Positions 11,355-32,660 of a stretch of 32,948 bases of DNA are shown piece by piece. The first letter of the stretch is position 1. Each line of letters begins with the position of its first letter. The notes below the pieces were generated by a model, which saw only the letters and a program-made list of their open reading frames with translations, was not told the DNA's origin and searched no databases. The stretch lies in assembly GCA_017556145.1 (NCBI GenBank), contig JAFZCU010000196.1, forward strand, positions 1-32,948. The letters are read 5' to 3'. A program made the position numbers and the translations under genes. The stretch is from Prevotella sp. (GTDB taxonomy: Bacteria; Bacteroidota; Bacteroidia; Bacteroidales; Bacteroidaceae).

Positions 11355-11399
11355 TTAGATTATACCTTAATTTACGCCAAATATAATTGATAAAGTTGC

Positions 11400-11429
11400 T
11401 TGTTATATCAAAGAAAAACTGTATCTTTG
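11400..11429 (+). promoter_or_regulatory. Promoter of BtuF-like gene
   Basis: TTG (11400-11402), a 19-nt spacer and TATCTTTG (11422-11429), only 8 nt before the ATG at 11438. The in-frame upstream start at 11387 would precede the promoter and is rejected. Confidence 0.7.
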
Positions 11430-11437
11430 CAGTCAAG

Positions 11438-12604
11438 ATGAAAAGAGTTGTTGTTTTAGGAATGTTATGCATGACACTGCTACTATTCAGCTCATGCAAT
11501 CAGAGAGGCAAAGCAGTATCAAGTGATAATGCAAGTGTAGATAGTCTTCTGTGTCCGAAGTATGCTACGGGTTATCAGGTAAAGAGTCAGGATGGCATGC
11601 GACTGGTAGACGTGGGCGAAAGGCCACGGGTAGGCGAACGTAGTTCGGGAATGGACTATCACTTTGCGTTGGTAACATCGGATGACGTAACGGTGCCGGA
11701 TGGCTATACGAAGATACACATTCCCATAAAGAGTACCATCTGCATGACGGCACTGCAACTCTCTAACTTTACGATTCTTGATGCGCACGATGTAGTGAAG
11801 GGCTTGACGGGTACGAAGAATCTTTTCAACAAGGACATCCTACAACGAGTGAAGGACGGACGTATCGTGAAGATCGGTACGGAGGGTAATTTCGACACGG
11901 AGATGGTGCTGGCAGCTAATCCTGATGTTATCTTCATTTCGCCCTTCAAGCGGGGCGGCTACGATGCCATCAAGGAGACGGGTATCACGCTGGTGCCGCA
12001 CTTAGGCTACAAGGAACTGGATCCGCTTGGTCAGGCCGAATGGATTAAGTTCGTGGGCATGTTTATCGGTAAGGAGAAGGAAGCCTGTGAGATATTCTCC
12101 GGTATCGAAGAACGTTATCTAAGCCTCAAATCTCAAACCTCAAATCTCAAACCAGAAGAGCGTCCCACGGTGACGAGTGGCGAGATGCACTACGGCAACT
12201 GGCATGCGGTAGGTGGCAAGAACTATCTGGCCCAAATTTTCCGCGATGCAGGGGCTGACTACGTGATTCACGACGAGGAGACGGCTGGCGAGGATCTGGA
12301 GTTTGAGAAGATGTACGAGTTAGCTGCCAATGCTGACTACTGGCGCATACTGAACAGTTTCCCAGGTGAGTTCTCGTATGAGGCACTGAAGGCCACAGAG
12401 CCTCGCAATGAACTGTTTAAGGCTTTCAAGGAGCGTAAGGTCATCTACTGTAACATGAAGCAGACGCCCTATTACGAAATCTCGCCTGTAGAGCCCGACG
12501 TGCTGCTGAAGGACTTTGTGGCTATCTTCCATCCGGAACTCGTGGAACCCGACTACAAACCGAGATACTATCAATTATTGACAACAACGGATTTAACTGA
12601 TTAA
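11438..12604 (+). CDS. Periplasmic substrate-binding lipoprotein of a B12/iron ABC importer (BtuF/FecB-like)
   Basis: 388 residues with lipobox LFSSC (Cys20). The TroA/FecB-type fold is marked by ALQLSNFTILDAHDVVKGL, KIGTEGNFDTEMVLAANPDVIFISPF and later GGKNYLAQIFRDAGADYVI. It binds a cobalamin, haem or siderophore-like ligand on the periplasmic side. B12 is favoured by the surrounding cobalamin genes but not proved. The gene has collected three repeats: a family A palindrome (11619-11652, ERPRVGERSSG), a 2 x 14-bp tandem repeat (12125-12152) and an intergenic palindrome that supplies its last residues (TTDLTD). The permease follows 63 nt downstream. Confidence 0.85.
   Translation: MKRVVVLGMLCMTLLLFSSCNQRGKAVSSDNASVDSLLCPKYATGYQVKSQDGMRLVDVGERPRVGERSSGMDYHFALVTSDDVTVPDGYTKIHIPIKSTICMTALQLSNFTILDAHDVVKGLTGTKNLFNKDILQRVKDGRIVKIGTEGNFDTEMVLAANPDVIFISPFKRGGYDAIKETGITLVPHLGYKELDPLGQAEWIKFVGMFIGKEKEACEIFSGIEERYLSLKSQTSNLKPEERPTVTSGEMHYGNWHAVGGKNYLAQIFRDAGADYVIHDEETAGEDLEFEKMYELAANADYWRILNSFPGEFSYEALKATEPRNELFKAFKERKVIYCNMKQTPYYEISPVEPDVLLKDFVAIFHPELVEPDYKPRYYQLLTTTDLTD
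11619..11652. repeat. Palindromic repeat family A, copy 3 (inside BtuF-like gene)
   Basis: 34 bp aligned without gaps to copies 1 and 2. The stem here is CGAAC-GTA-GTTCG instead of CGACG/CGTCG, so two base pairs changed on both sides together. Confidence 0.8.
12125..12152 (+). repeat. 14-bp tandem repeat inside BtuF-like gene
   Basis: Two exact copies of CTCAAATCTCAAAC in frame, encoding a low-complexity linker (LKSQTSNLKP). Confidence 0.8.
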
Positions 12605-16639: not shown

Positions 16640-18385
16640 TTAGTGAAATTCGTAGTTAAAAATTCTCCCGTTGTCATCAATCAGCAGGATGGTGAGAGAA
16701 CCCTTAGGCATGAGAGGATTGCAATGTTCGGCACAGTGTCGGATGACCGTACTGGCAAAGGCTTCACGTTTGCCCCCAGGCAGACGGTCCCAGAGTTCGC
16801 GAGCCAGGGTGATGTCGCTGATGTCGATGTCGCAGTCTGATTCTCTGAGCATCAGTCGGATGAAATCCTTGTCCATTGTGGTCTTGCGGCTATGGGTGTC
16901 GAGATGGCCAGCAGCCAGTTTGACGGCCTTGCCCAGCATCACGCCGAGGGTGACTTCCTTGAAATCGAGCTCGTTGGCTATTTTGAGTGTTTCACCGATA
17001 TAGTTGCCGTATTCCACAAAGGCCTGCTGGGGCAGAGTGGGATAGAGGGCCTTCACGAAACGCTCACTCTTTCCACCGCTGTTGATGACGACTCGCTCTG
17101 AGCCTGAGGCCTTGGCCACCGTCATACATTTGCGGATGCTGTCGATGAAAGCCTCTTCACTAAATGGCTTCACGATGCCGGAGACGCCGATGATCGAGAT
17201 ACCGCCCTCGATACCCAGACGGGGGTTAAAGGTCCTGCGGGCTATCTCTGCACCTTGGGGAACAGAAATCACAATGGATAATGGACAATGGATAATGGAT
17301 AATTGTTTCAGGTTCTGGCGGATCATCTCTCGTGGGGCTTTGTTGATGGCTGCTTGTCCTGGTGGATAGTCGAAGCCAGGCAGTGTAAACCTTCCGACGC
17401 CCTCTCCGCCAAGAATCTCAAAGGTCTCGGATGGCTTAACGCTCGCGCGGATCTCGATCCCATTCGTCACATCCGGATCATCGCCCGCCTCCTTGATGCA
17501 ATACGCATAGCCCTCGCCATAGCCCACAGGCACTTGAATCGTCTCGCCATCAGGCAACAGGACGTCTACTTTCTTTGGCATCTCCTCTTTCAGCAGTCGT
17601 ATCGTCGCCGCTACAGCTGCCGCCGTCGCACAGGTGCCTGTCGTTAGTCCGCTATGCAGGGGATAGAACTCAGGCAGCAGCTTCTCCACCGCTCGCTTCA
17701 AACCATACGGGCCATTGACTTTCGTGAAAAACACAGGTGTCTTAGGTCGCTTCAAAGCAATGATCCTCATACCTCGGGCTTGGGCTGCCTCCACTTTCTC
17801 TGGGAATCCGCCTGAGATACCACTCTCCTTCAGCAGGATAGCATCAGCCTCAACGGGAATATCCTTCGGATCCTCGTAATAGCAAAGCTGTTCTTCCCTT
17901 GCCCCTTGCTTAAGAGCTAATGCGATCGACGATTCCCTATTCAGGATGCGATAATAGACCTTGGTGCCCTCTGCCTCTATTGGCTTTAGTTTGGCGATGC
18001 TCTGCACACCTGTCGTCGCTAATAGACTATGAATATCATGAGGTATCTGACTATAGTCGTCAATCCAAATGATATCTGGATCGTGAGGCGGATAGATACG
18101 CTCAAACCGGATGGTAGGGATGTTCAGCGCTTCAGAGACCTGGGCAATCGTCTTGTGTAGCTGCGTAGCGAAGGGATGAGCCGCATCCACCATCAGGCGG
18201 ATATCGTGCTCACGACAGAATGTCAGCATCGACTCTTCATCCATCGCCCCATCCAAACGTGAGCCGTGATGCAAGGTGATGTCCTGCTCACCTGTCTTAG
18301 TGCTGTAGTAATAGGCATTGCCCGCCTCCTCCAGCACCTCCACGGCCTTGCGCCCTTCCGTCGTTCCTCCGAATACCAGTATCAT
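16640..18385 (-). CDS. CobK-CbiD fusion: precorrin-6A reductase + cobalt-precorrin-5B C1-methyltransferase
   Basis: 581 residues from the ATG at 18385, which has GGAG directly upstream and a promoter behind it; the open frame extends further but into the terminator. Residues 1-235 are CobK/CbiJ (MILVFGGTTEGRKAVEVLEE, VDAAHPFA, KESGISGGF). Residues about 244-581 are CbiD (HSGLTTGTCATAAA, PGFDYPPGQAAINKAP, GGISIIGVSGIVKPFSEEA). Both work in corrin-ring synthesis: C1 methylation with ring contraction, then reduction of the precorrin-6A macrocycle. Residues about 360-373 (LSIIHCPLSIV) are encoded by an intergenic-type ATGGATAATGG repeat and are not expected in CbiD. The other cobalamin genes in view lie 11 kb away, beyond the mobile DNA. 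Confidence 0.9.
   Translation of the reverse strand: MILVFGGTTEGRKAVEVLEEAGNAYYYSTKTGEQDITLHHGSRLDGAMDEESMLTFCREHDIRLMVDAAHPFATQLHKTIAQVSEALNIPTIRFERIYPPHDPDIIWIDDYSQIPHDIHSLLATTGVQSIAKLKPIEAEGTKVYYRILNRESSIALALKQGAREEQLCYYEDPKDIPVEADAILLKESGISGGFPEKVEAAQARGMRIIALKRPKTPVFFTKVNGPYGLKRAVEKLLPEFYPLHSGLTTGTCATAAAVAATIRLLKEEMPKKVDVLLPDGETIQVPVGYGEGYAYCIKEAGDDPDVTNGIEIRASVKPSETFEILGGEGVGRFTLPGFDYPPGQAAINKAPREMIRQNLKQLSIIHCPLSIVISVPQGAEIARRTFNPRLGIEGGISIIGVSGIVKPFSEEAFIDSIRKCMTVAKASGSERVVINSGGKSERFVKALYPTLPQQAFVEYGNYIGETLKIANELDFKEVTLGVMLGKAVKLAAGHLDTHSRKTTMDKDFIRLMLRESDCDIDISDITLARELWDRLPGGKREAFASTVIRHCAEHCNPLMPKGSLTILLIDDNGRIFNYEFH
17271..17305. repeat. ATGGATAATGGACA simple repeat inside cbiD
   Basis: Tandem degenerate units of ATGGATA/ATGGACA, translated on the minus strand without breaking the frame. 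The same repeat type is in umuC (24663-24698). Confidence 0.8.
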
Positions 18386-18399
18386 CTCCTTTTTGACGG

Positions 18400-18407
18400 C
18401 AAAGATA
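18400..18407 (-). promoter_or_regulatory. -7 element of cobK-cbiD promoter
   Basis: TATCTTTG on the minus strand, 15 nt upstream of the ATG at 18385. It overlaps the T-tract of the terminator of the former upstream gene. Confidence 0.6.
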
Positions 18408-18439
18408 AATAAAAAAGCCGAAAGCACAAAACTTTCGGC
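18405..18439 (-). terminator. Rho-independent terminator of the MATE gene remnant
   Basis: The stem GCCGAAAG/CTTTCGGC (18417-18424 with 18432-18439) has a 7-nt loop, followed on the minus strand by TTTTTTATTTAT. Confidence 0.8.
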
Positions 18440-18471
18440 AGGTTTTGTTAGTTTACGAAGCCTTTTGTGCG

Positions 18472-18582
18472 CTACTTGCCTGACCGCCAGCGTCGCACGA
18501 GGATGACACCACGGATGTTCTCGTCGAGGGCGAAGTCCACCCACATGCCGACGAGACCGAAGCGACGGCCCCCAGCATCATG
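18472..18582 (-). pseudogene. C-terminal stub of a MATE multidrug efflux protein
   Basis: The minus strand reads GRRFGLVGMWVDFALDENIR then GVILVRRWRSGK and stop. This is the usual end of MATE-family Na+/H+ drug antiporters (GLVG-W-A-ALDE-RG-I--RW-SGKW). Only about 36 codons remain, cut at the left end of the IS21 element. Its terminator is intact just downstream. The rest of the gene is not on the other side of the IS. Confidence 0.65.
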
Positions 18583-18704: not shown

Positions 18705-20309
18705 ATGGTAGACATGGACAAGAAAGAACAAATCCTCCATTACCATCGCATTGATGGTTTGAGTCAGCGGGAGATAGCCCGTAGAGTTGGTGTTTGCAGG
18801 AAAACGGTCAAGCGCTACATCACAAAGTATGAGGCACAAGTACAGTCTGATCCGGAAGACGGAGCAAACATGTGCCTGGCAAGTAAGCCGAAGTATCCTT
18901 CACGCAAGGTAGAATGCACACGCATGACGGATGCCGTGCGTGCAGAGATTGACTACTGGCTGGAAGAGAATGCCAAGCGACGCCTGACAGGTATGCGCAA
19001 GCAGTGCCTTAAGCGTCAGGACATCCATCTTGCGCTGATAGAAAAGGGTTTCTCCATCAGCTATTCCAGCGTCTGCAAGTACATCCAGAAACGCAAGGAG
19101 GAGAAGACGAAGAAGCCCAAGGATGTGTTCATCAAGCAGTACTACGAGCCTGGTCAGGAGTGCGAGTTTGACTGGGGCGAGGTCAAGCTGCGTATAGGCG
19201 GAAAGCCCGTGACGTTTACGATGGCTGTGTTCGCCCTATGTCACAGTGAGGGCCGCTGGGCATACCTCTTCCGTCATCAGGACAATCTGGCCTTCATGGA
19301 GTCGCACCGTAACTTCTTCCACGACGTGCATGGCGTGCCTCATACGATGGTGTATGACAATATGAAGGTAGCCGTCATTCTGAAGCCGGACGGGAAGAAG
19401 CCTACGGAGACGCTTCTGCGCATGTGTGCCTTCTATGGCTTCGGATACCGCTTCTGTAATGCCCGTGCAGGCTGGGAGAAGGGACATGTGGAGCGTAGTG
19501 TGGACTTTGTGCGCGGACGAGCCTTCACACGCCGCGTGGACTTTAACTCCATCGAGGATGCGCAGCAGTGGCTGAGCCACATCTGTGACATGCTCAACAG
19601 GGAGAGCGGCAGCATTGCTACGGGAGGCAAGCAAGAGGCCCTGCGCAGGGATCTCGACTGTATGCTGCGCTTCCCGGGCGACTTTGGATGCTTCGACCTG
19701 CTGCAGTGCACAGTGGACAAGCAGTCCACCATATCCGTCAAGAACAGCCATTACTCAGTACCTGACCATTTCGTCGGGCAGACTGTCATCGTGCAGCTCT
19801 ACAGCGAGAAGATACGCGTCTATGACTCCGCACACAAGAAGATGGCCGAGCACGAGCGCAGCTACTCCAGGGGATCATGGACGTTTGACATCAACCATTA
19901 CATCAACACCCTGATGAAGAAGCCCGGCGCGCTCAAGGGCTCTGTGGCACTGAGGCAGATGCCCGAGAAGATGCGCGAGCTCTTCCGCGTGCACTTTGCT
20001 GACAAGGATAACGGCAAGGATTTCCTGCATCTGCTCAAGTATTGCAGGGAGAACAAGTACGACTATAAGGACATCCTCGATGCCGTCAGGAAGATACGCA
20101 TGCGTGGTGCCCGCCATATCACGTTTGACCAGATCAAGGTGGTACTGGAAACGCACAAGGACGGTCCGCTGGAGTTTGAGGAAAGCCAGAAGACGGATGC
20201 CTTCATTGAGATAGAGCTCGGCAGCGAGGACGTGCTGACGCAGCTGGACGGCATCATGCAGGGCACGGCTGGTGGCTACAAGAATAATGAAAGGAGGAAA
20301 AAGCCATGA
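18705..20309 (+). CDS. istA: IS21 transposase IstA
   Basis: 534 residues. The N-terminal HTH (GLSQREIARRVGVCRKTVKR, about 20-39) is followed by a DDE catalytic domain with first Asp in EFDWGEVKLRI and second in MVYDNMKVAV, and the RAGWEKGHVERSV segment around the Glu. It carries out cleavage and strand transfer at the element ends. A second ATG at 18714 is an alternative start. The stop overlaps the istB start by 4 nt (ATGA), the usual coupling. Confidence 0.95.
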   Translation: MVDMDKKEQILHYHRIDGLSQREIARRVGVCRKTVKRYITKYEAQVQSDPEDGANMCLASKPKYPSRKVECTRMTDAVRAEIDYWLEENAKRRLTGMRKQCLKRQDIHLALIEKGFSISYSSVCKYIQKRKEEKTKKPKDVFIKQYYEPGQECEFDWGEVKLRIGGKPVTFTMAVFALCHSEGRWAYLFRHQDNLAFMESHRNFFHDVHGVPHTMVYDNMKVAVILKPDGKKPTETLLRMCAFYGFGYRFCNARAGWEKGHVERSVDFVRGRAFTRRVDFNSIEDAQQWLSHICDMLNRESGSIATGGKQEALRRDLDCMLRFPGDFGCFDLLQCTVDKQSTISVKNSHYSVPDHFVGQTVIVQLYSEKIRVYDSAHKKMAEHERSYSRGSWTFDINHYINTLMKKPGALKGSVALRQMPEKMRELFRVHFADKDNGKDFLHLLKYCRENKYDYKDILDAVRKIRMRGARHITFDQIKVVLETHKDGPLEFEESQKTDAFIEIELGSEDVLTQLDGIMQGTAGGYKNNERRKKP

Positions 20310-21058
20310 GTGAGAAGGATATCATTGACCAGTATGCCAAGGAACTGAAGCTGGCATCAGTGAGGGAGAACGTATCACTCTTTGCCGAGGATGCCATCAG
20401 GGAACAGTGGGGATATCTCGCTTTTCTCAGGCGACTGTTGGAGGAGGAAGTGACCAGGCGGCGCGAGAAGAGTAAGATAACCCGTATTCACAGGGCAGAC
20501 TTCCCGCAGATGAAATACTTAGAGGAGCTCCATAGGGAGGAGCTCCCCCTTGAAGGCCAGATGCTGTTGCCCGAGGTGGAAAACCTTGAGTTTATAAAGG
20601 AAGGACGCAGCATCGTTATGTACGGCAATCCTGGGACAGGCAAGACACACATCTCCATCGGGCTGGGCATCAAGGCGTGTCTTGAAGGATACTCGGTTTT
20701 CTTTACTTCCGTACCACACCTGCTGACAATGATCAGGGAGGCAAAGACGGAAAAGTCCCTGAGAAACCTGGAGATTAAGTTTGAACGCTATGACCTGGTA
20801 ATATGCGACGAGCTCGGATATGTCGGATTCGACAAGGAAGGTGCAGAAATGCTTTTCAACCATCTCTCGCTCAGAACAGGAAAAAAGTCAACGATTATTA
20901 CAACCAATCTCCCGTTTACCAGATGGGAGGAGGTACTTAAGGATAAGGTATTATGCTCGGCTCTCGTCGACAGACTCTGTCATAAATCGTATCTAGTCAA
21001 CATGACCGGTACGTCATATCGTATTAAAGAAACAAAAAAATATATCAGCAATAAGTAA
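20306..21058 (+). CDS. istB: IS21 helper ATPase IstB
   Basis: 250 residues, the normal IstB length. Walker A is GNPGTGKTH, Walker B is LVICDELGYVGFD, and sensor-like TIITTNLPF follows: a DnaC-like AAA+ ATPase. It assembles on target DNA and stimulates IstA. Translationally coupled to istA. Confidence 0.95.
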   Translation: MSEKDIIDQYAKELKLASVRENVSLFAEDAIREQWGYLAFLRRLLEEEVTRRREKSKITRIHRADFPQMKYLEELHREELPLEGQMLLPEVENLEFIKEGRSIVMYGNPGTGKTHISIGLGIKACLEGYSVFFTSVPHLLTMIREAKTEKSLRNLEIKFERYDLVICDELGYVGFDKEGAEMLFNHLSLRTGKKSTIITTNLPFTRWEEVLKDKVLCSALVDRLCHKSYLVNMTGTSYRIKETKKYISNK

Positions 21059-22669: not shown

Positions 22670-23086
22670 TTATTTAGATTTTACAAGCTGGCCTGTGTTC
22701 ATGAGCACCTTCACCAGCAGGCTGTTCAGTTTCGACGCCGTATTGAAGTCATAGCTCTTTCCCGTCTCAGAAGTATAGGTCGTATTAGCCGTAGCCAGTT
22801 CAGAAATTCCCCTCAAGATAGTGTCAGAGCTGCATGTGCGAAGAGTGGGATGAAGCGAAAGATGGGGTATCAGATGGCTCGTCACGTCCTCCACGCAGTC
22901 GCCCCCACAGAAATAGACGCTTGACAATGAACCCACAATCTCGCTGTACTGATAGCCGTATGACGTACACCGAAGACCCAGAACTTTGTCGATAACAGGA
23001 CCCGCAAAACGGGAAAAAAGCTCTCTTACGTGAAATATTCCTCCAAAAGGAGTGATTTTCTCAGATTTTATTTGTACTTTTGCCAT
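22670..23086 (-). pseudogene. IS1380 transposase, N-terminal 138 residues
   Basis: Begins MAKVQIKSEKITPFGGIFHV then RELFSRFAGPVIDKVLGLRC, continues with VYFCGGDCVEDVTSHL and ends at TASKLNSLLVKVLMNTGQLV then KSK and stop. Full IS1380 transposases have over 400 residues, so the catalytic core is missing. Confidence 0.8.
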
Positions 23087-23222
23087 GTCATTGATGATTT
23101 TGCTTGTCATTAAAACGTAGCACTAAGGTAAGTGAAAAATCTGACATGACAAAATCCTGAGCAACTTTTTGTTGCTCAGGTACTTATAAAGAAAGATAAA
23201 CTAAAGTGCTGCGGCGTTTAGG
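23061..23222. repeat. 162-bp direct repeat, copy 1 (IS1380 end)
   Basis: Matches 26762-26923 in the same orientation with about two mismatches by eye (AGATA/AGTTA, GCGGCG/GCGGAG). Recombination between them would remove or amplify 3.7 kb containing glf, umuDC and rhuM pieces. Confidence 0.85.
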
Positions 23223-23227
23223 GAGAG

Positions 23228-24352
23228 ATGAAGAAACTGGACTATATGATTGTCGGTTCGGGCCTTTTCGGTGCCACATTTGCCTACCGTGCCCGGCAAA
23301 TGGGCAAGCGGTGTAGGGTCATCGAGAAACGGTCGCATACAGGTGGCAATGTGTATTGTGAGAACATAGAGGGTATTCGTGTCCACAAATATGGCGCGCA
23401 CATCTTTCATTCGTCCAACAAAGAAGTCTGGGATTTCGTGAACAGTTTCGTACCATTCAATAGATACACGAACTCGCCTGTTGCAAATTACAGGGGAAAA
23501 CTGTACAGCCTGCCCTTCAACATGAATACATTCAATCAGTTGTGGGGCGTGCTCACTCCAGAGCAGGCGAGGGCAAGGATTGAGGAGCAGAGGGCCGATG
23601 CCGTTGCCCGGCTTAACGGACGTGAACCGCAGAATCTGGAAGAGCAGGCGCTGACACTGGTGGGGAGGGATATCTTCGAGAAACTGATCAGGGAGTACAC
23701 GGAGAAACAGTGGGGGCGCAAGTGCTCGGAACTGCCCTCATTCATCATCAGGCGGCTGCCTGTCCGTTTCACGTTCGACAACAACTATTTCAATGACAGT
23801 TTTCAGGGAATACCCATTGGCGGGTATAACAGGCTCATAGAAGGTCTGCTGGATGGAGTGGAACTTATCACAGGGGTGGATTTCCTGAAATCCGATTATA
23901 GGGATTGGACGAGGTATGCCGACAGACTTGTCTATACAGGTGCTCTTGATGAGTTCTACGGTTACCGGTACGGCAGGCTGGACTGGCGGACAGTACTGTT
24001 TAAGACGAGGGTTGAGGACACTCCGAACTATCAGGGGAATGCGGTGGTCAACTATACAAGCCATGACCGTCCCTATACCCGCATCATCGAACACAAGCAC
24101 TTTGAGATGTTCGGGCAGGAGGTGTATGACTGCCCAAGGACGGTCGTCAGTGAGGAGTTTTCAACGGAATACAAGGAAGGAATGGAGCCTTACTACCCGG
24201 TCAATGACGAACGGAACAATGGACTTGCGGACAGATATCGTAGTCTTGCGGCAAAGGAGGAGAATGTTGTTTTCGGCGGCCGCCTGGCCGAGTATAAGTA
24301 TTATGACATGGCCCCAATTATAGAAAAGGTTATGGCCATGAAGATATTATAA
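23228..24352 (+). CDS. glf: UDP-galactopyranose mutase
   Basis: 374 residues, the normal length. The FAD-binding GxGxxG is in MIVGSGLFGATFA (7-19). Other signatures are KYGAHIFHSSNKEVWDFVN, FNMNTFNQLWG, REYTEKQWG, RLPVRFTFDNNYFNDSFQGI, PIGGYNRL and the C-terminal GRLAEYKYYDM. It interconverts UDP-galactopyranose and UDP-galactofuranose in the cytoplasm for galactofuranose-containing surface polysaccharide. The first five bases upstream adjoin the IS1380 end, so the native promoter has been replaced. The stop overlaps the next ATG (TAATG), showing it was coupled to the glycosyltransferase that is now truncated. Confidence 0.93.
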   Translation: MKKLDYMIVGSGLFGATFAYRARQMGKRCRVIEKRSHTGGNVYCENIEGIRVHKYGAHIFHSSNKEVWDFVNSFVPFNRYTNSPVANYRGKLYSLPFNMNTFNQLWGVLTPEQARARIEEQRADAVARLNGREPQNLEEQALTLVGRDIFEKLIREYTEKQWGRKCSELPSFIIRRLPVRFTFDNNYFNDSFQGIPIGGYNRLIEGLLDGVELITGVDFLKSDYRDWTRYADRLVYTGALDEFYGYRYGRLDWRTVLFKTRVEDTPNYQGNAVVNYTSHDRPYTRIIEHKHFEMFGQEVYDCPRTVVSEEFSTEYKEGMEPYYPVNDERNNGLADRYRSLAAKEENVVFGGRLAEYKYYDMAPIIEKVMAMKIL

Positions 24353-24666
24353 TGATTGTAGCAAGTGCAATGGAAAAGCTGATTACGATAATCATACCGA
24401 CCTACAACATGGAGCGCTATCTGGCTAAATGCCTGGATACGCTTGTGATTTCAGATGAGAATATGGGGCTGCTGGAAGTACTGGTGGTCAATGACGGCAG
24501 TAAGGATGCATCGGGCCGTATCGCCCATTGGTATGAAGGAAAGTATCCTGCCACATTCCGTGTTATTGACAAGGAGAACGGCAATTACATGCCGATGCTG
24601 ACAGGCATACGGGTAGCCTTCCAGATGAATGCCGACAGGTCTTCGCCCCATTTCTTAAGCGATTGA
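24352..24666 (+). pseudogene. Family 2 glycosyltransferase, N-terminal fragment
   Basis: The GT-A start MEKLITIIIPTYNMERYLAK (from the ATG at 24370; the coupled ATG at 24352 is an alternative), LEVLVVNDGSKDASG and VIDKENGNY are clear GT2 signatures. The homology ends at about 24588. The remaining codons to the stop at 24666 are antisense umuC. The DxD-containing and acceptor regions are gone, so it is inactive. It was presumably part of a galactofuranose-containing polysaccharide cluster with glf. Confidence 0.85.
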
Positions 24667-26211: not shown

Positions 26212-26787
26212 TTAGTCGTCGGTGATTGCAAAAGGGTCTTGATATGATGTATTGTCCGTATAGATGTTCAGTTCATAGTGTCTCGCCGTTCTTATCCACT
26301 TGGCTGGTACGCTGATGAACTTTGAACACGAAGGCCTTGATACGACTGTTCTTCTTCAGTCCGAAGGCTTTTGTGTCAAGCCTGCCCATGAGGAACTTGT
26401 AGAAGTTTCGTATGAGTGCCGTCAGCAGCAGGAACACGGTGTTCTCTGCCATGAACGACTTTGGTAGCCTGTTCCATCCGAATCCGTTATTTATATCGTC
26501 GAAGATGCGTTCCTTGCCGCCCCTGAGGTTGTAGAACTCCACGATTTCCCTCGTGGTGGACATATAGTCGTTGGTCAGGATGCAGCGGTATGTGTATTCT
26601 CCCTCCCACAGGTCCAGGTCACCTTCCCCCCGACGCTCCCTCTGTATGACGAGTCGTTACGCCTTGCCTTCCCACTTCTCCATGATGATGGAATTCAGCT
26701 CATATTCGATGCCGTTGATCTGCTCGCGCTGCCATCCACGCAGTGCCAGCAGACTGTCGTATCAGATTTTATTTGTACTTTTGCCAT
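26212..26787 (-). pseudogene. IS1380 transposase, internally deleted and frameshifted
   Basis: The ATG at 26787 gives MAKVQIKS, then joins directly to the C-terminal region. Another frame reads DSLLALRGWQREQINGIEYE, an in-frame stop after WEGKA, TYRCILTNDYMSTTREIVEF, ERIFDDINNGFGWNRLP, then a shift to FISVPAKWIRTA and YTDNTSYQDPFAITDD. There are at least one deletion, one stop and one frameshift. Confidence 0.8.
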
Positions 26788-26923
26788 GTCATTGATGATT
26801 TTGCTTGTCATTAAAACGTAGCACTAAGGTAAGTGAAAAATCTGACATGACAAAATCCTGAGCAACTTTTTGTTGCTCAGGTACTTATAAAGAAAGTTAA
26901 ACTAAAGTGCTGCGGAGTTTAGG
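26762..26923. repeat. 162-bp direct repeat, copy 2 (IS1380 end)
   Basis: Counterpart of 23061-23222, including the hairpin at 26857-26881. Confidence 0.85.
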
Positions 26924-27264: not shown

Positions 27265-27996
27265 TCAGTACCGGATCAGGCTGCTGTTCTTGACGGGATG
27301 GTAGAATGTCTTCGGCCTGTGTTCCTCGATGTATTTGCGCTCATAGACCTCGGCAGGCTTCGACGAGATGTCGAAGTGAAAGTCCAGGTTCTCGAACTGC
27401 CGGATGTAGTAGCCGCGGTTGTAGGCCATCGTGGGCAGCAGGATTTCGTAGTAGAAGCTGTCGTTCTCCTGCATGAACGCCTCTAAGTCCGTCAGGTACC
27501 GTTGGCTCACGCTGAATATGTGGCACCAGAAGGCGTAGAGACGCTTGAAGCAGTCGTTGCGAAAGCCATAGATGTTGAAATGGCGGCGAAAATCGCCGAA
27601 GCTGTCGGTGGCGATATGGATGTAGTCACACGCCAGGCCGTTCACCTTGCGGACGAAGTTGCGCCATTCGCCGCACAGCACGAGGTCGCCCTCCATCACG
27701 AGGTAGTGGCTGTAGGGATGCACCTTCGAAAATGGTATCAGCACCTTCAGCGGATTGGGCAACCGACGGTCGCCGCCGAAGAAGAAGCCCGGCAGCTCGC
27801 TCGAGTTGAACACATAGAAGTCCAGATCGGGATAGTCCGCCGGATCCAAGGGCTGCGTGCCACAGTCGTAGAGGACGTAGAAGTCCATCGCCTCCGTGAT
27901 CTCCCCTTTCAGGAAACGGAGATAGCGGAGCATCGGCTCGTCCATCCTATGGGTCACCAGGACGGTGCAGTTCTTATGCTGTTGCTGAATCATCAA
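27265..27996 (-). CDS. Glycosyltransferase-like protein in GG-leader peptide operon
   Basis: 243 residues. I do not recognise the family by name. The opening TVLVTHRMDEPMLRYLRFLK, YVLYDCG (41-46) and especially HYLVMEGDLVLCGEW (about 97-111) look like a GT-A nucleotide-sugar fold with an acidic metal-binding site in place of DxD. A predominantly aromatic/charged C-terminus ends HPVKNSSLIRY. There is no signal peptide or membrane span. The start overlaps the GT8 stop by 23 nt, so they are co-translated and probably act on the same product. It is the last gene of the peptide operon. A capsule-related glycosyltransferase is the alternative. Confidence 0.6.
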   Translation of the reverse strand: MMIQQQHKNCTVLVTHRMDEPMLRYLRFLKGEITEAMDFYVLYDCGTQPLDPADYPDLDFYVFNSSELPGFFFGGDRRLPNPLKVLIPFSKVHPYSHYLVMEGDLVLCGEWRNFVRKVNGLACDYIHIATDSFGDFRRHFNIYGFRNDCFKRLYAFWCHIFSVSQRYLTDLEAFMQENDSFYYEILLPTMAYNRGYYIRQFENLDFHFDISSKPAEVYERKYIEEHRPKTFYHPVKNSSLIRY

Positions 27997-28939
27997 AGTT
28001 TATATTTGAATAATCCTTTAGTATTTCTGATACGGCTTCTGCCTCAGTCTTCTTTAACTTAACATACGGAAGCAACGGTATGTGCTTCCAGGGTGAGAGA
28101 GCCTTGTAGCGCAGATAGTCGTCATTGCGCGACGAGGTACACTGCTCGTGCCAGGGTCGCCCGCTGGGCCAACCGGCCATGTAGTGGATGATGACGGGAC
28201 TCTGGATGGACTCCTCTATCTCCTCGTCGGTAAAGTAACCGCCCAGCCGTACCAGTTCGCGCTCCTTCTCGGGGGGGAGGCAGTGCGAACGGTAGTTATA
28301 TTTCGGCGGCAACCACCTGATGAGCTGCTCGGGGATGGCGTTGTTCAGCAGATTCTGGTCGGGAAAGGTGAGGTCAATCTCCTTTCCGAGCGTCGTGACA
28401 ATCATCTCGTGGCAGTGCTCCCGCCGCCAGGTGGCGAGGTCGTAGAGCAGCACGCCTGAGTTAAAGTATTTCCTGTTACCGTTGATGAGCGATATCTTCC
28501 CCTTCAAGATATCCATCGAGATCCAGAGACTGACGACGGCTCCGAGTGCCGCCCCGCGCATGTCGAGGCTGCCGAGCGGAGCCACTGAGCCTGTCACCAT
28601 CGTATCGGCATCGATGAAGAGCAGCCGCTCCACGTAGTCGGGCATGATCATGTCGACAAACGCCTTGGCGTTGGGTGCCATGCTTCCCCTCCAGCCCTTC
28701 AGCTTCGGGAAGCTGCGCTTCACCTCGTCGGTCACGGCCTTGGCATCGATGAAAGTGATGCGCCGGCCATAGCGGGTCGCGATGTCAGAGATACGCTGTC
28801 TGTTCTCCGGAAAGATGCCGTAGTCGAGGAAGAACACCTCCTCAGGCTCGTAGTCGGGGTTGTTCTCGAAGAACCCTATCAGCGAGATGCCCGCCTCACG
28901 GACGAAATAGTCATTGATTGAAAAGCAGATGTAGAGCAT
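27974..28939 (-). CDS. Family 8 glycosyltransferase
   Basis: 321 residues. YICFSINDYFVREAGISLIG opens the GT8 fold, the metal-binding DxD is DAD (110-112, LLFIDADTMV), NSGVLLYDL follows at about 167-175, and HYMAGWPSGRPW is the family's third motif (H--G---KPW type). It should transfer a hexose from a UDP-sugar, in the cytoplasm. The 75-nt spacer to the second GG-leader peptide contains no terminator, so it is expressed with the peptides. This suggests it glycosylates the peptide; LPS or capsule decoration is the alternative. Confidence 0.85.
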   Translation of the reverse strand: MLYICFSINDYFVREAGISLIGFFENNPDYEPEEVFFLDYGIFPENRQRISDIATRYGRRITFIDAKAVTDEVKRSFPKLKGWRGSMAPNAKAFVDMIMPDYVERLLFIDADTMVTGSVAPLGSLDMRGAALGAVVSLWISMDILKGKISLINGNRKYFNSGVLLYDLATWRREHCHEMIVTTLGKEIDLTFPDQNLLNNAIPEQLIRWLPPKYNYRSHCLPPEKERELVRLGGYFTDEEIEESIQSPVIIHYMAGWPSGRPWHEQCTSSRNDDYLRYKALSPWKHIPLLPYVKLKKTEAEAVSEILKDYSNINFDDSATA

Positions 28940-29014
28940 CAGTAACTAATCAGGTTACATCTCGTGTCCATAGGTCTGTACCCATGACTACCTAATTAAC
29001 CGTTTCCAAAAATC

Positions 29015-29224
29015 TCAGTGCAGCCCGAATGAATCAGATGGTCCATATGCACCTACACCAATACCTCCTCCGGGTCGTCCTCCGGCTACACCGTCGAGTT
29101 CGTCATCGTCCATTGGAATTGCGCCGGCCTCCACCAGTTCATCCTGGAGAACCTTTGCCTCTTTCAAAATCTCTGAGAGCTTTTGTTTCTTCTGCTCAAT
29201 ATGTTCGTTTGTTAATGTTGCCAT
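29015..29224 (-). CDS. GG-leader precursor peptide 1 (putative RiPP, Gly-rich core)
   Basis: 69 residues from the ATG at 29224 (an upstream ATG at 29257 would lack leader similarity). Residues 1-49 form a charged helical leader (IEQKKQKLSEILKEAK) ending MDDDELDGVAGG, the double-glycine cleavage type. The predicted core after GG is RPGGGIGVGAYGPSDSFGLH. It contains two Ser and one Tyr as possible O-glycosylation sites and no Cys. The leader is about 70% identical to that of peptide 2 while the core is unrelated except for the initial Arg. This resembles Bacteroidota natural-product precursors with a GG motif (TIGR04149-like). No peptidase-transporter is adjacent. Confidence 0.75.
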   Translation of the reverse strand: MATLTNEHIEQKKQKLSEILKEAKVLQDELVEAGAIPMDDDELDGVAGGRPGGGIGVGAYGPSDSFGLH

Positions 29225-29276
29225 AATCTTAATAGTTATATTTTTGTAAATACCCAAATACCTGTCCCCTCTATTT

Positions 29277-29459
29277 TCAACCGTATAAATTAGAATCTAA
29301 AGGATCGCGCCTGCCTCCTGCCACTTGGTCGAGTTCGTCATCGTCCATGGGAACAGCGCCGGCCTCCATGAGTTCATCGTAGATGGCCTTTGCCTCTTTC
29401 ATTTTCTCTTCGAGCAGTTGTTTCTTCTGCTCAATCTGTTGGTCTGTCAGTGTTGTCAT
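29277..29459 (-). CDS. GG-leader precursor peptide 2 (putative RiPP)
   Basis: 60 residues from the ATG at 29459. The leader (1-49) has TLTDQQIEQKKQLLEEKMKE, then DELMEAGAVPMDDDELDQVAGG split across the same positions as peptide 1. The predicted core is RRDPLDSNLYG. It is the first gene of the operon, directly behind a well-formed promoter. One Ser, one Asn and one Tyr are available for modification. The paralogous leader with a different core argues for a precursor family recognised by shared enzymes. Confidence 0.75.
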   Translation of the reverse strand: MTTLTDQQIEQKKQLLEEKMKEAKAIYDELMEAGAVPMDDDELDQVAGGRRDPLDSNLYG

Positions 29460-29485
29460 AATCTTATAGTTTTTGAGATTCGGTG

Positions 29486-29516
29486 CAAAGATAAGAATAA
29501 TTCCCGAACTATCCAA
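29486..29516 (-). promoter_or_regulatory. Promoter of GG-leader peptide operon
   Basis: On the minus strand, TTG (29516-29514), a 20-nt spacer and TATCTTTG (29493-29486), 26 nt before the ATG at 29459. The operon is therefore independent of the cobalamin genes upstream. Confidence 0.75.
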
Positions 29517-29586
29517 ATAATCCGGCAATTTTTTCAACGCATGGTAGCTATGTTATCTTGTAACAGACGGCGGAAGGGCCATGTTG

Positions 29587-31359
29587 TCAGTTCCCTTGGC
29601 GGAAGAGATGGGTGAAGTGTTTCGAATAGAGCTCAGACAGACCTTGGCGGTTGTCGATGGCCTCGCCGACGACAAGCATCGTGGTGAGGGTGAGGTGGTT
29701 GTCGTGGACAATCCTGGCGAGGTCCTTGAGTACGCCGCGATAGATGCGCTGGTCTGGCCACGTGAGATGATAGCAGGCGGCAACGGGCGTATCCTCAGGA
29801 TATTCCTGAAGGAGTTCGCGCTGGACATCATCGACGATGGAGGCGCTGAGGAAGATGCACATCGTGCTCTGGCTACGGGCCAGCAGATGCAGTTGCTCTT
29901 TCTCTGGCATGGGGGTGCGGCCCTCGCCACGGGTCAGGATGATGGTCTGGCAACGCTCAGGAATCGTGAACTGACTCTGCAACTCGGCAGCAGCGGCTAG
30001 GAACGACGAGATGCCTGGGGTGATGTGATAGTCCATATCGTTGGCATCGAAGAAGGCCATCTGCTCCTGGATGGCTCCGAAGATACAGGGGTCTCCCGTA
30101 TGTAGACGAACGATAAAGTGACCCTTATCGTAATGCTCCTTCATCAGCGCACATTGTTCTTCGAGGTTCATGTCAGCAGAGGAGCGTACGACGGCTCCAG
30201 GTTTATGGCACTCTGTCAAGGCCTTAGGCACCAACGAGCCTGCATAGAGAATCAGGTCAGCCCGCTCCAGCATCTTTCGACCACGGACTGAAATCAAATC
30301 GGGATCGCCAGGACCTGCACCCACAATCTCGATATGGCCTTTCGCCTCGCGCAGGTATTTGTAGTCAATGGCAAGGGCTGCCGTCCAGTTTTTGCCTTTC
30401 ACTTTGGGAATGATAAGTTTGCCATGATTTGAGCCAAGGATAGCTGCTGCCTCACAGACAGAGGGCGTGCCCACGTGTTTCTGAACGGTTGTACTTGGAT
30501 TGCGAACATCCACAGCCGCCAACTCTTCAGCCGTAAAGAATACCACTTCTTCTCCATAGTCATCCTCAAGCACTTCTATAAAGGGCTCGTCCGCTTTGAC
30601 GTCGATGGTGCAATAACGATGATAACATGGCAATACACCCCTCTCTGAGAATGCCTCGTCTATTTGGTCATAGATATTCTCATAGTCATCGGGATGATGT
30701 GCCAGACCGAAGCCAACGGTTCCCACCATCGGCACAAACTGCAAGCAAAGTATTCCTTCTGGTTCATATCGGATAAACGGCGAGACAATGATGAGGAGTT
30801 CGAATTTCTTGGGATCAGCCTCGCTGATGTCGTTGATGACAGTTACATGATTCGGCAGTGTCTTTTCCAGATAATCCGTTCCCTCGTCACGGACCTCCAT
30901 CAATAAGGCAGTAGGTTTCTTGTTTACGAAAGTAAAGATGCATTCGTTGAGGTCTTCTTCCGTTGCCAAGGGCCAGTCAAAACGTTGTTCAAACGTGTCG
31001 AGCGCCCAAAGACCGGCATTGTCGCTCTGGGTGGTGATGACCTCGCGAGCACCAATCAGCGAAGCCACATCGCGAGCTAGGTCGTTGGCACCTCCGATAT
31101 GGCCTGAGAGTACGGAGATGGCATTCAACCCCATGCTGTCGACACAGACCACAGCAGGGTCTTCATGTTTGTCTTTGATATAGGGTGCTATGGTTCGGAC
31201 ACAGATCCCCATCGCTCCGATAAAAACGAAGGCATCGAATTTGTCCCAATGCTTACCAATCTCGGTACGAGTGATGGTCTTGGCACCAAGTTCGCGCTGA
31301 AGGGTGTTGGCAATGTCCTTGCCTGCCTCGCTGATTTGTATGATAGCTATCTTCTGCAT
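29587..31359 (-). CDS. CbiG-CobM fusion: cobalt-precorrin-5A hydrolase + precorrin-4 C11-methyltransferase
   Basis: 590 residues from the ATG at 31359, which overlaps the cobL stop by 13 nt. Residues 1-340 are CbiG: FIGAMGICVRTIAPY, LSGHIGGANDLA and the C-terminal domain with TVGFGLA and NHGKLIIPK. Residues 342-590 are CobM/CbiF: HIEIVGAGPGDPDLISVRG at the SAM site, HTGDPCIFGAIQEQM, YHITPGISSFLAAAAEL and TIILTRGEGRTPMPEKE. It methylates C11 and opens the lactone with loss of acetaldehyde, adjacent steps of the anaerobic pathway. It is the last gene of the cobH-cobL-cbiG/cobM block. No strong terminator is seen in the 29538-29586 gap. Confidence 0.92.
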   Translation of the reverse strand: MQKIAIIQISEAGKDIANTLQRELGAKTITRTEIGKHWDKFDAFVFIGAMGICVRTIAPYIKDKHEDPAVVCVDSMGLNAISVLSGHIGGANDLARDVASLIGAREVITTQSDNAGLWALDTFEQRFDWPLATEEDLNECIFTFVNKKPTALLMEVRDEGTDYLEKTLPNHVTVINDISEADPKKFELLIIVSPFIRYEPEGILCLQFVPMVGTVGFGLAHHPDDYENIYDQIDEAFSERGVLPCYHRYCTIDVKADEPFIEVLEDDYGEEVVFFTAEELAAVDVRNPSTTVQKHVGTPSVCEAAAILGSNHGKLIIPKVKGKNWTAALAIDYKYLREAKGHIEIVGAGPGDPDLISVRGRKMLERADLILYAGSLVPKALTECHKPGAVVRSSADMNLEEQCALMKEHYDKGHFIVRLHTGDPCIFGAIQEQMAFFDANDMDYHITPGISSFLAAAAELQSQFTIPERCQTIILTRGEGRTPMPEKEQLHLLARSQSTMCIFLSASIVDDVQRELLQEYPEDTPVAACYHLTWPDQRIYRGVLKDLARIVHDNHLTLTTMLVVGEAIDNRQGLSELYSKHFTHLFRQGN

Positions 31360-32660
31360 TTCAATATAGTTATTGGGTGATTTTCGTTCAATTGGATATG
31401 AAGTGGAGGTAACTGTTGCAAACCGAGTGACTTGCAAGCCTCATCCCATAGCTTCTTGCTATCAACGGTAACCTTTGGCGCAACAACGCTATTGAAGACG
31501 ATGATTCCGTCGTCAGTTAGCACAGTTAGGACTTTTTTCATGATCTCTTTCAGTTCTCCGCCGTGTCCACCGATGAAGACGGCATCGGGACGAGGTAATG
31601 CAGTAATATCCGTTTCGAGGAAGTCGCCGATATGCACGTTGATGCCTGGGGCTCCGAATTTGCGGGCATTCTCATGGATGATGGTCTCACACTCAGGACG
31701 GATCTCAAAGGCCTCAATATGCAAATGAGGGAACTGCAGACGAGCCTCGATGCTGACGCTGCCCGTACAGAAACCAATATCCCAAAGCACATGTCTTTTC
31801 GGTAGGTCAAGTGCCTGAAGTGTTAGCAGACGGATGGGCATCTTCGTAATCATCTTCTCACGACCATCGAGGAGGGTGAACTCGCTATCGGGAATGCCAA
31901 AAGTACACAAAAGGGACGGTTCTTGCGTCCCGTTGGTAGCAAGCGAGCAGAGCTCGAGCGCTTTTTGTGTACTTTCAAGTATTACGCAGTTGGGCATTGA
32001 GAACGCTATTCGTGTAGCCTCTTCGAGTGTCAACTTTGTGACCTTTTCTTTTTCCGGATTGCCAAGATGTTCGCCAACGTACATTGTATAATTGTTATAG
32101 CCATAGTCCAGCATCCGTTGGGCGATGGTGGCTGGCGTGTGCTCTTTGTCTGTCAACACGCCTATCTTCCCAGGGCGTTCTATGAGGGCTTTGTCGAACT
32201 CTGGCCAGGGACGCCCAGTAAGCGATACAATCCTCATATCGTGATAGGGTATCACCAAACGATGGGCCAGCATCTGTAAGGAATTGAAAGTTGGATAAAC
32301 TACGATTTCTGCTTCAGGCATTTGAGCTTCGCTCGAATTCAGTCGCGACTCGGCAGAGCTGGAACAAGCTCCGCTCTGCTCTCGCTGCTCCTTCATTTTA
32401 CGCTTGATAGTATTGGCAAAACCAAAGAAGAGAGGGTCACCAGAAGCGAAAACCACCACTTCATCATGATACTGTTCGAAGACGGCATCGATGGGGACGG
32501 TGATATCTATCCACTCTGCGTTGGCAGGTAGTAACGGCGTCACAATCTCGTGGTGACGTTTGCCGCCAGAAAAAACCTTACCGTTTTTGATGATTTCTAA
32601 CACTTCTGGCGGAAACCAAGGCTTTGGATTATCTGTGATACCTATGACAATAAACTTCAT
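31347..32660 (-). CDS. cobL: CobL (CbiE-CbiT fusion): precorrin-6Y C5,15-methyltransferase (decarboxylating), with two in-frame repeat insertions
   Basis: 437 residues. The CbiE half is at 1 to about 260 (SGGKRHHEIV, FASGDPLFFGFANTI, YPTFNSLQMLAHRL, SLTGRPWPEFDK). The CbiT half is from about 275 (MITKMPIRLLTL, LWDIGFCTGSVSIEARLQFP as SAM motif I, FIGGHGGELKEIM). It methylates C5 and C15 and decarboxylates the acetate side chain. Residues 90-114 (EQREQSGACSSSAES...) and about 231-252 (TQKALELCSLATNGTQEPSL) interrupt the expected sequence in the CbiE half, and both are encoded by palindromes. The start overlaps the cobH stop (ATGA), so the genes are translationally coupled. Confidence 0.92.
   Translation of the reverse strand: MKFIVIGITDNPKPWFPPEVLEIIKNGKVFSGGKRHHEIVTPLLPANAEWIDITVPIDAVFEQYHDEVVVFASGDPLFFGFANTIKRKMKEQREQSGACSSSAESRLNSSEAQMPEAEIVVYPTFNSLQMLAHRLVIPYHDMRIVSLTGRPWPEFDKALIERPGKIGVLTDKEHTPATIAQRMLDYGYNNYTMYVGEHLGNPEKEKVTKLTLEEATRIAFSMPNCVILESTQKALELCSLATNGTQEPSLLCTFGIPDSEFTLLDGREKMITKMPIRLLTLQALDLPKRHVLWDIGFCTGSVSIEARLQFPHLHIEAFEIRPECETIIHENARKFGAPGINVHIGDFLETDITALPRPDAVFIGGHGGELKEIMKKVLTVLTDDGIIVFNSVVAPKVTVDSKKLWDEACKSLGLQQLPPLHIQLNENHPITILKCRR
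31900..31975. repeat. Inverted-repeat-bounded insertion inside cobL
   Basis: AAAGTACACAAAA (31900-31912) and TTTTGTGTACTTT (31963-31975) are perfect 13-bp inverted repeats. Inside is the hairpin GGGACG-gttcttg-CGTCCC (31913-31931) and AGCGAGCAGAGCTCGAGCG. Its GGGACGGTTCT is shared with the palindrome at 6620. Confidence 0.8.
32330..32405. repeat. Palindromic repeat family B, copy in cobL
   Basis: The stem GCAGAGC (32353-32359)/GCTCTGC (32373-32379) with nested GGA/TCC lies inside a 75-nt in-frame insertion flanked by CAT (ATG codons) on both sides. It encodes EQREQSGACSSSAESRLNSS, sharing REQS-A with the insertion in methyltransferase 2. Confidence 0.75.

Follow-up and report, generated by a model that had tools for sequence, protein, structure and literature searches.

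Putative glycopeptide operon with two double-glycine leader precursors and a leader-linked GT8 glycosyltransferase in Prevotella sp.

A four-gene operon was analysed in a 32,948-nucleotide stretch of Prevotella sp. DNA, referred to below as the window. Judging from its genome context, the operon probably makes two glycosylated, ribosomally made peptides, and would belong to a leader-directed family of ribosomally synthesized and post-translationally modified peptides (RiPPs) based on a glycosyltransferase of family GT8. On the minus strand, from 29459 to 27265, the gene order is P1 and P2, both encoding peptides with a leader that ends in double glycine (GG), followed by GT8 and by GtX, which overlaps it (Table 1). 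The original prediction for this stretch had described two GG-leader peptides, a GT8 enzyme and an overlapping 243-residue protein as a glycosylated-RiPP operon; the open reading frames (ORFs) were confirmed, GT8 matched PF01501, the two leaders were identical at 35/49 residues (118/147 bases, with 29 bases differing), and the genome context supports glycosylation as the predicted modification.

Recurrent linkage of the leader with GT8

A collection of species genomes was scanned with the GT8 alignment, with no leader information included, a search that retrieves only places matching two short peptide patterns. Ten loci were recovered from seven metagenome-assembled genomes (MAGs), four of which are labelled as water-buffalo rumen, and leader genes were present in all of them (10/10), beside one to six GT8s each, with the best leader E value per locus ranging from 1.2e-24 to 6.0e-11. 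By chance, about 4e-4 leader copies are expected within 6 kb of a random place, and 0.024 in the leader-richest genome. Two of the ten loci were those of genome G291 already met in the genus search (G, C and L numbers denote genomes, contigs and loci), in which close GT8s (E<=1e-40) were found in 2/299 genomes, namely that of the window and G291. In G291 three GT8s lie directly downstream of one leader gene, and a second locus holds a leader and a GT8 bearing an internal deletion.

In 13 genomes, 29/33 PF01501 matches were linked to the leader, a descriptive proportion because these genomes were chosen for having leader or GT8, the leader-blind scan being the test. The recurrence had been anticipated in the original prediction, which had named as contrary patterns leaders that stand consistently beside other modification genes and never beside glycosyltransferases, and glycosyltransferases confined to capsule or lipopolysaccharide (LPS) loci; what was found instead was a leader that repeatedly adjoins this GT8 clade, and a clade mostly linked to it. 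One of the linked cases (L074:2612-4591) encodes a GT2-like part fused to a GT8 of class C (defined below), beside a short GG precursor with a leader E value of only 0.0012, and the fusion also adjoins a HATPase-like gene of the kind opening NHLP exporter operons, that is, the start of an exporter-type operon.

The precursor genes and their operon

The P1-P2 leader pair differs more at synonymous than at nonsynonymous sites (proportions pS 0.33 vs pN 0.16), as does P1 compared with two other leader copies of its own genome (pS 0.50 vs pN 0.15; pS 0.59 vs pN 0.17), so that both ORFs look translated and conserved. The leader was found three more times in that genome (E<=4e-10), which argues against chance ORFs. 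The promoter match spans 58 to 27 bp ahead of the P1 start, with its -7 element at -34 from the ATG. The strict pattern, TTTG-N20-TATCTTTG, which we take to be the Bacteroidales-type promoter consensus, has seven occurrences when both strands of the 33 kb window are counted, and among 13 other leader starts the two-part motif was present at one and the -7 element at five. The region upstream of P2 was read for 60 bp only. The TTG call for GtX gives 243 residues; this TTG is directly followed by an ATG codon at 27993, the probable start of GtX, and counted from there the overlap with GT8 amounts to 20 nt.

No radical SAM, LanM, YcaO or peptidase-transporter gene was seen adjoining the operon when the ORF list was inspected by eye. 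The absence of such genes claimed in the original prediction thus held for the neighbourhood and not for the genome, which carries a C39 exporter on contig C51 and a radical SAM/SPASM protein on contig C154.

The GT8 enzyme

The window GT8 matched PF01501 at E=7e-26 (91.8 bits, gathering score 24.3), which places it in the GT8 family, and its residues 25-269 align with the LgtC structures 1ss9 and 1g9r (E 1e-13 to 5e-13). D110, D112, Q195, H252 and the RPW motif at 261-263 are invariant among four relatives and align with LgtC residues to which we presume catalytic roles. A profile of the enzyme and its relatives also matches 5gvv, presumably the pneumococcal GT8 GlyE acting on a protein-linked glycan.

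A tree was built from 27 linked and three unlinked sequences, leaving out L063:1663-2484 (called short), the first GT8 of L067, the broken L072 copy and G302:C2. The linked GT8s form three paralogous groups, named classes A, B and C; class C (support 87/78) contains the window GT8 and has a member in every locus represented in the tree. No GT8 was found in viral contigs, and GT8 and GtX have no detectable relationship to each other.

Leader family, processing and export

The own genome contains five leader copies at E<=4e-10, two in the operon, two on contig C154 and one on contig C106. The leader is present in 7/299 genus genomes (30 copies listed, with a maximum of eight per genome), and was absent at E<=1e-5 from the 383 other genomes drawn from the order, the own genome being alone of 384. 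Mean pairwise identity was 56% for leaders and 17% for cores (43 precursors with leaders of at least 44 residues), in agreement with the hypervariable cores that had been predicted. No NCBIfam model matched the P1-P5 leaders above cut-off, nor any Pfam model those of P1 and P2; P3 alone of the five touches the Nif11 model (12 bits, cut-off 32.3).

All the compared leaders (49/49), including P1 and P2, have the GG end, one of AVILMFWYC at -4 and one of VILMFW at -7 and -12, a check in which Ala was accepted at -4 and the GG-finding pattern partly fixes -7. These are the leader positions bound by the C39 groove in the LahT co-crystal, according to the available text (PMC6363468). The single C39 peptidase family match of the own genome is an NHLP-type exporter on contig C51 (locus L073), outside the window: its ABC1 scored 885.7 with TIGR03796 (cut-off 853.3), and the genes beside it matched below cut-off as ABC2 (TIGR03797, 701.8; cut-off 709.4) and HlyD (TIGR03794, 114.1; cut-off 156.2), giving an NHLP-type export system (ABC1 with C39 domain, ABC2 and HlyD). 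NHLP ABC1 proteins above cut-off occur in 23/299 genus genomes, 5/7 of those with the leader vs 18/292 of the others (Fisher p=3e-5), and 18 genomes carry an NHLP exporter without this leader; at 700 bits or more, ABC1 is present in 6/7 leader genomes (Fisher p=1.6e-6).

Precursor, GT8 and exporter genes stand in one run in L068, where a GG precursor, a leader-like ORF, three GT8s, a GT2, a UDP-galactopyranose mutase (Glf) and an NHLP exporter follow one another (ABC1 877.6, cut-off 853.3; ABC2 695, cut-off 709.4; HlyD 107.7, cut-off 156.2). NHLP exporters are also leader neighbours in L057 (851.4, cut-off 853.3) and L061 (880.4).

The GtX protein

With moderate confidence, GtX is assigned from sequence as a GT-A-type glycosyltransferase. 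Its profile matches a protein of phylum-mate G412 (E=3.9e-6), with which it has in common an E-x-D motif (E102/D104) and a C-terminal YHP-K motif; the G412 protein in turn matches DUF3405 at E=1.2e-4 (21.5 bits, below the Pfam cut-off of 25), and its gene lies between rhamnosyltransferase-like and Glycos_transf_1 genes. GtX was found in 1/299 genus genomes, the own one, and in 5/395 genomes of the phylum at E<=0.01 including the own one, with one convincing match; plasmids and viral contigs yielded none.

Among the 10 GT8 loci, relatives of GtX (62-63% identical) occur in L063 and L070 only, so the predicted linkage to the 243-residue family does recur, in two loci. In L070 GtX is flanked on both sides by a GG precursor; the gene order in L063 is a GG precursor, a SpoIIE-type phosphatase gene, GtX and a second GG precursor. 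Neither relative matched a family-library model above cut-off, and that of L070 had only a chance-level Pfam match. A gene of L063 has UDP-glucuronate decarboxylases as its best solved relatives (E 5.6e-104), and L070 holds a similar gene by eye. A xylosyltransferase role of GtX, supplied by this decarboxylase-like gene of both other GtX loci, became less likely, since the L063 protein has no relative (E<=1e-20) in the own genome, which is 83% complete.

Core composition and weighing of the evidence

The cores of P1 and P2 contain no Cys, and Cys was present in 2/23 GT8-linked cores in a first run, or 3/24 with L069:5505 included. Composition was compared between 24 GT8-linked cores (12 loci) and 25 unlinked cores of the same leader family (15 loci) by permutation of loci. 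By locus mean, Pro, Ser and Thr together made up 32.0% of the linked vs 20.4% of the unlinked cores (p=0.0015; 33.2% and p=0.0006 when the window locus was left out), and hydrophobic residues 20.6% vs 28.7% (p=0.0053), while Ser plus Thr gave p=0.019 and Pro alone p=0.055; these p values are uncorrected for nine residue classes in the first run and five in the second, and loci from the same genome cannot count as independent. Ser or Thr occurred in 23/23 linked vs 22/26 unlinked cores in the first run. L069:5505 had been missed by the pattern of that run and was restored in the second, for which the contig-edge L047:1-292 was removed. Never counted as cores were L064:5701-5838 (start in another frame), L048:8116-8244, L058 and L059 (contig ends), and the GG-less leader-like ORFs L065:1235, L068:3062, L071:5517 and the one within the methyltransferase of L069; two pairs of entries, L046/L066 and L050/L072, denote one place each and entered the counts a single time. 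The Arg-initiated cores of the original prediction are a feature of P1 and P2 and not typical of the family.

Several points weigh against a glycopeptide product of this operon, besides the marginal value for Pro, the uncorrected tests and the dependence of loci just given. The window cores, with 18 and 20% Pro, Ser and Thr, stand at the low end of the linked set, which counts against reading the window operon as of the Pro/Ser/Thr-rich type, and the P1 core offers only one Ser and lacks Thr altogether. The branch leading to the window GT8 is long (0.84), and the protein, at 321 residues, is shorter than its complete leader-linked relatives (at least 335 residues), both of which could reflect relaxed constraint. 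No GT8 is nearby for 25/49 compared leaders. GtX has no Pfam match, and its profile gave only chance-level matches against the PDB. Genome G254 has four leaders and no NHLP ABC1 over the cut-off, and the own assembly (3.46 Mb in 242 contigs) is 83% complete with 5% contamination.

Alternatively, GT8 and GtX could act on a surface glycan or a lipid, while the peptides leave the cell without modification, as bacteriocins or pheromones, and share only their regulation with the glycosyltransferases; this is the best of the alternatives and is considered unlikely. Against it, precursor and GT8 genes interleave in the 10 GT8-scan loci, where inspection by eye, with no search aimed at them, showed no flippase, polymerase or O-antigen exporter; in its favour, the four unlinked GT8 matches (G254:C94, G300:C69, G264:C12 and G302:C2, the last below the Pfam cut-off) lie, also by eye, in surface-polysaccharide-like loci. 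In the tree the linked GT8s fall on one side, apart from the three capsule-type ones, with a support of 87/69 that is not strong and long branches for the unlinked rows. The altered core composition beside GT8 also argues against another acceptor, whereas the distant GtX relative of G412 among polysaccharide-type glycosyltransferase genes, the leaders lacking an adjoining GT8, and the Glf, GT2 fragment and DUF4422 protein of the window are likewise in its favour.

It appears quite improbable that a different RiPP enzyme of the genome, for instance the radical SAM/SPASM protein of contig C154, does most of the core modification in trans and that glycosylation is a minor addition. More than one enzyme could use a common leader, P5 has a SPASM-type maturase gene divergently beside it, and radical SAM proteins are the RiPP enzymes found most often in the Bacteroidales survey, as far as its available text goes (PMC10352776); the Cys residues of P5 (CQQQC), however, are missing from P1 and P2, and inspection of the ten GT8 loci by eye showed no SPASM maturase among their precursors, the one radical SAM ORF of L063 lying at the contig edge. 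Least probable of all is that the glycosyltransferases mark the peptide or leader intracellularly, for self-protection or export control, with no sugar in the final product: GG-less, core-less leader-like ORFs do precede GT8s in three loci, and a methyltransferase carries another such sequence as a fusion, which may mean that the leader has a docking or regulatory role of its own, yet core composition differs beside GT8s. Two glycosylated peptides stay the preferred product of the operon.

Neighbouring genes and further leader loci

The leader-like ORFs without GG or core stand just before GT8 in L065, L068 and L071, and L069 encodes a Methyltransf_24 protein with a leader-like C-terminus and no GG; these sequences are possible docking or regulatory partners acting in trans. 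The claim that glycosylation would be the only modification holds just in part for the wider set, because related loci carry GT2, methyltransferase, UDP-glucuronate decarboxylase-like and Glf genes as well.

Leader copies without GT8 repeatedly adjoin cysteine proteases, either C11 (clostripain-like) or C10, and in L008 leader copy P5, on contig C154, is divergent from a maturase-like gene of the radical SAM/SPASM type, which the contig end truncates. Leader and exporter loci are accompanied by SpoIIE-type phosphatases, a HATPase protein and, by eye, STAS-like neighbours, which may point to a common regulatory switch. Leader genes were also seen by eye near cobalamin-biosynthesis-like genes, in the window and in G291.

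Elsewhere in the window, a UDP-galactopyranose mutase gene followed by a truncated GT2 resembles the Glf (61%) and GT2 (54% over 72 residues) of L068, and is perhaps a displaced piece of a larger cluster. This pair was not counted as part of the operon because it lies on the opposite strand and beyond apparent insertion sequence (IS) remnants, and because the frequency of such pairs was not counted. An IS21-like istA/istB pair and transposase remnants (by eye) lie between the cobalamin-type genes and the operon.

Table 1. Location of the operon features and of related or neighbouring genes (window coordinates unless a locus is given).
Feature	Coordinates	Strand	Remarks
Promoter-like site, TTTG-N20-TATCTTTG	29486..29517	-	Strict pattern upstream of P1
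P1 precursor, 60 aa	29277..29459	-	Leader 29313-29459, 49 aa, ends DDDELDQVAGG; core RRDPLDSNLYG (11 aa)
P2 precursor, 69 aa	29015..29224	-	Leader 29078-29224, 49 aa, ends DDDELDGVAGG; core RPGGGIGVGAYGPSDSFGLH (20 aa)
GT8 glycosyltransferase, 321 aa	27974..28939	-	Class C of leader-linked clade; DAD 110-112, PDQ 193-195, H252, RPW 261-263
GtX, about 243 aa	27265..27996	-	Likely GT-A-type glycosyltransferase, distant kin of DUF3405-like proteins
Leader copy P5 and SPASM-type gene	L008:10409-10687 and 10745-11887		P5 core has Cys (CQQQC)
C11 clostripain-like proteases near leaders	L009:9597-11117, L054:4074-5738, L055:10458-12041		L009 protein below NCBIfam cut-off
C10 protease	L051:7390-9855		Adjoins five tandem precursors
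Leader-like ORFs without GG or core	L065:1235-1396, L068:3062-3217, L071:5517-5771		Just before GT8
Methyltransf_24 protein	L069:1116-2159		Leader-like C-terminus, no GG
SpoIIE-type phosphatases and HATPase protein	L063:4976-7021, L073:345-2264, L068:9199-9630		Near leader/exporter loci
UDP-galactopyranose mutase and truncated GT2	23228-24666	+	Resemble L068 genes
IS21-like istA/istB pair and transposase remnants	18705-21058, 22670-23110, 26273-26811		By eye
Cobalamin-biosynthesis-like genes	16640-18544, 29587-32660; G291 L049:1959-5053		By eye

Comparison with known systems

Neither GT8 nor GtX matched a SunS/GccA-type NCBIfam model (E up to 10, weak matches mostly filtered). Enzymes of the SunS/GccA type, which are GT2-like, are those of glycocins, in contrast to the GT8s found here in Bacteroidota, with up to six per locus. 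Glycocins are O- or S-glycosylated ribosomal peptides with their own glycosyltransferase and a peptidase-containing ATP-binding cassette transporter (PCAT), in the available text of the sources (PMC12457901, PMC9576775, PMC12455637, PMC7616364), and sublancin, glycocin F and thermoglycocin resemble the present system in having a leader, a dedicated glycosyltransferase and a C39 exporter (PMC12457901, PMC9576775, PMC12455637). The members described in that text carry Cys, mostly in disulfides, whereas the P1 and P2 cores are Cys-free, a difference from Cys-linked glycocins that the original prediction had noticed correctly. On the tested features, Cys and a SunS-type match, both of them lacking, the sequences would fall outside the glycocins. 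The family may work like a glycocin pathway, yet it is not classed as glycocin, and its standing as a separate class depends on chemistry.

NHLP/Nif11 precursors with NHLM exporters (prochlorosins and kin) are alike in the GG leader, the many cores per leader type and the NHLP ABC1/ABC2/HlyD exporter, and differ in that no P1-P5 leader is above the model cut-off and no LanM gene was noticed by eye in the loci. Cacaoidin and NAI-112 are RiPPs with a sugar at Tyr or Trp, as the available text has it (PMC7616364, PMC12455637), comparable with the glycosylation predicted here; there it is added to a lanthipeptide, while the window showed no lanthionine enzyme. Drosocin-type insect peptides are described, in the portion available, as short and proline-rich and as carrying an O-linked sugar at Thr (PMC10449632). 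The resemblance, in composition only, extends to several cores from L063, L064 and L072 and not to the window's own, and drosocin-type peptides are of animal origin.

For the Bacteroidales RiPP survey, the available text mentions PCATs accompanying GG precursors, glycosyltransferases as accessory genes in 2/9 clusters, and regions with radical SAM, LanC and peptide S-glycosyltransferase genes in some strains (PMC10352776). The present operon differs, since the glycosyltransferases described there are accessory or accompany radical SAM and LanC, and that text describes no GT8-based cluster (PMC10352776). Among the literature matches listed, seen in part, no description of GT8-linked GG precursors was found; a 2021 survey of glycocin clusters beyond Firmicutes may overlap.

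Proposed mechanism and significance

In the glycopeptide pathway proposed here, the 49-residue leader, common to dispersed precursor genes, would dock the class-C GT8, which would use a nucleotide sugar to O-glycosylate Ser/Thr (or Tyr) residues in the short, Cys-free core. A second step, by GtX, might add a further or a different sugar, and the NHLP-type C39 exporter of contig C51, working in trans, would recognise the leader at -12, -7 and -4, cut after the GG and export the glycopeptide. Gene content, recurrent linkage, the C39 determinants, the exporter gene and the conserved GT8 core are the observed parts of this scheme. Its conjectural parts are the core as acceptor, the residue and sugar involved, recruitment of GT8 by the leader, GtX as a glycosyltransferase acting second, and export in trans. 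At a guess from the kind of system, the product would probably be a competition (antibacterial) peptide or a signal.

More tentatively, the family can be put forward as a new RiPP class of Prevotella-like gut bacteria. Its banks of paralogous GT8s (A, B and C), bound by the leader and assisted by GtX, GT2, methyltransferase and sugar-nucleotide enzymes, might build defined oligosaccharides on short, mostly Cys-free and often Pro/Ser/Thr-rich peptides. The products would parallel, in bacteria, the glycosylated proline-rich antimicrobial peptides, and the core-less leader-like peptides would serve as GT8 docking or regulatory partners.

The solved GT8 structures are of LPS and other glycan-building enzymes, and the literature found, in its available parts, does not tie the family to RiPPs. 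If the glycopeptide reading is correct, glycosylation by GT8 enzymes would be the primary modification of a RiPP family, and these enzymes would be leader-programmable peptide glycosyltransferases. The question would then be raised of whether a leader can direct the step-wise assembly of a glycan on short, variable peptides, and the leader profile would provide a mining handle for glycopeptides in rumen and gut Bacteroidota.

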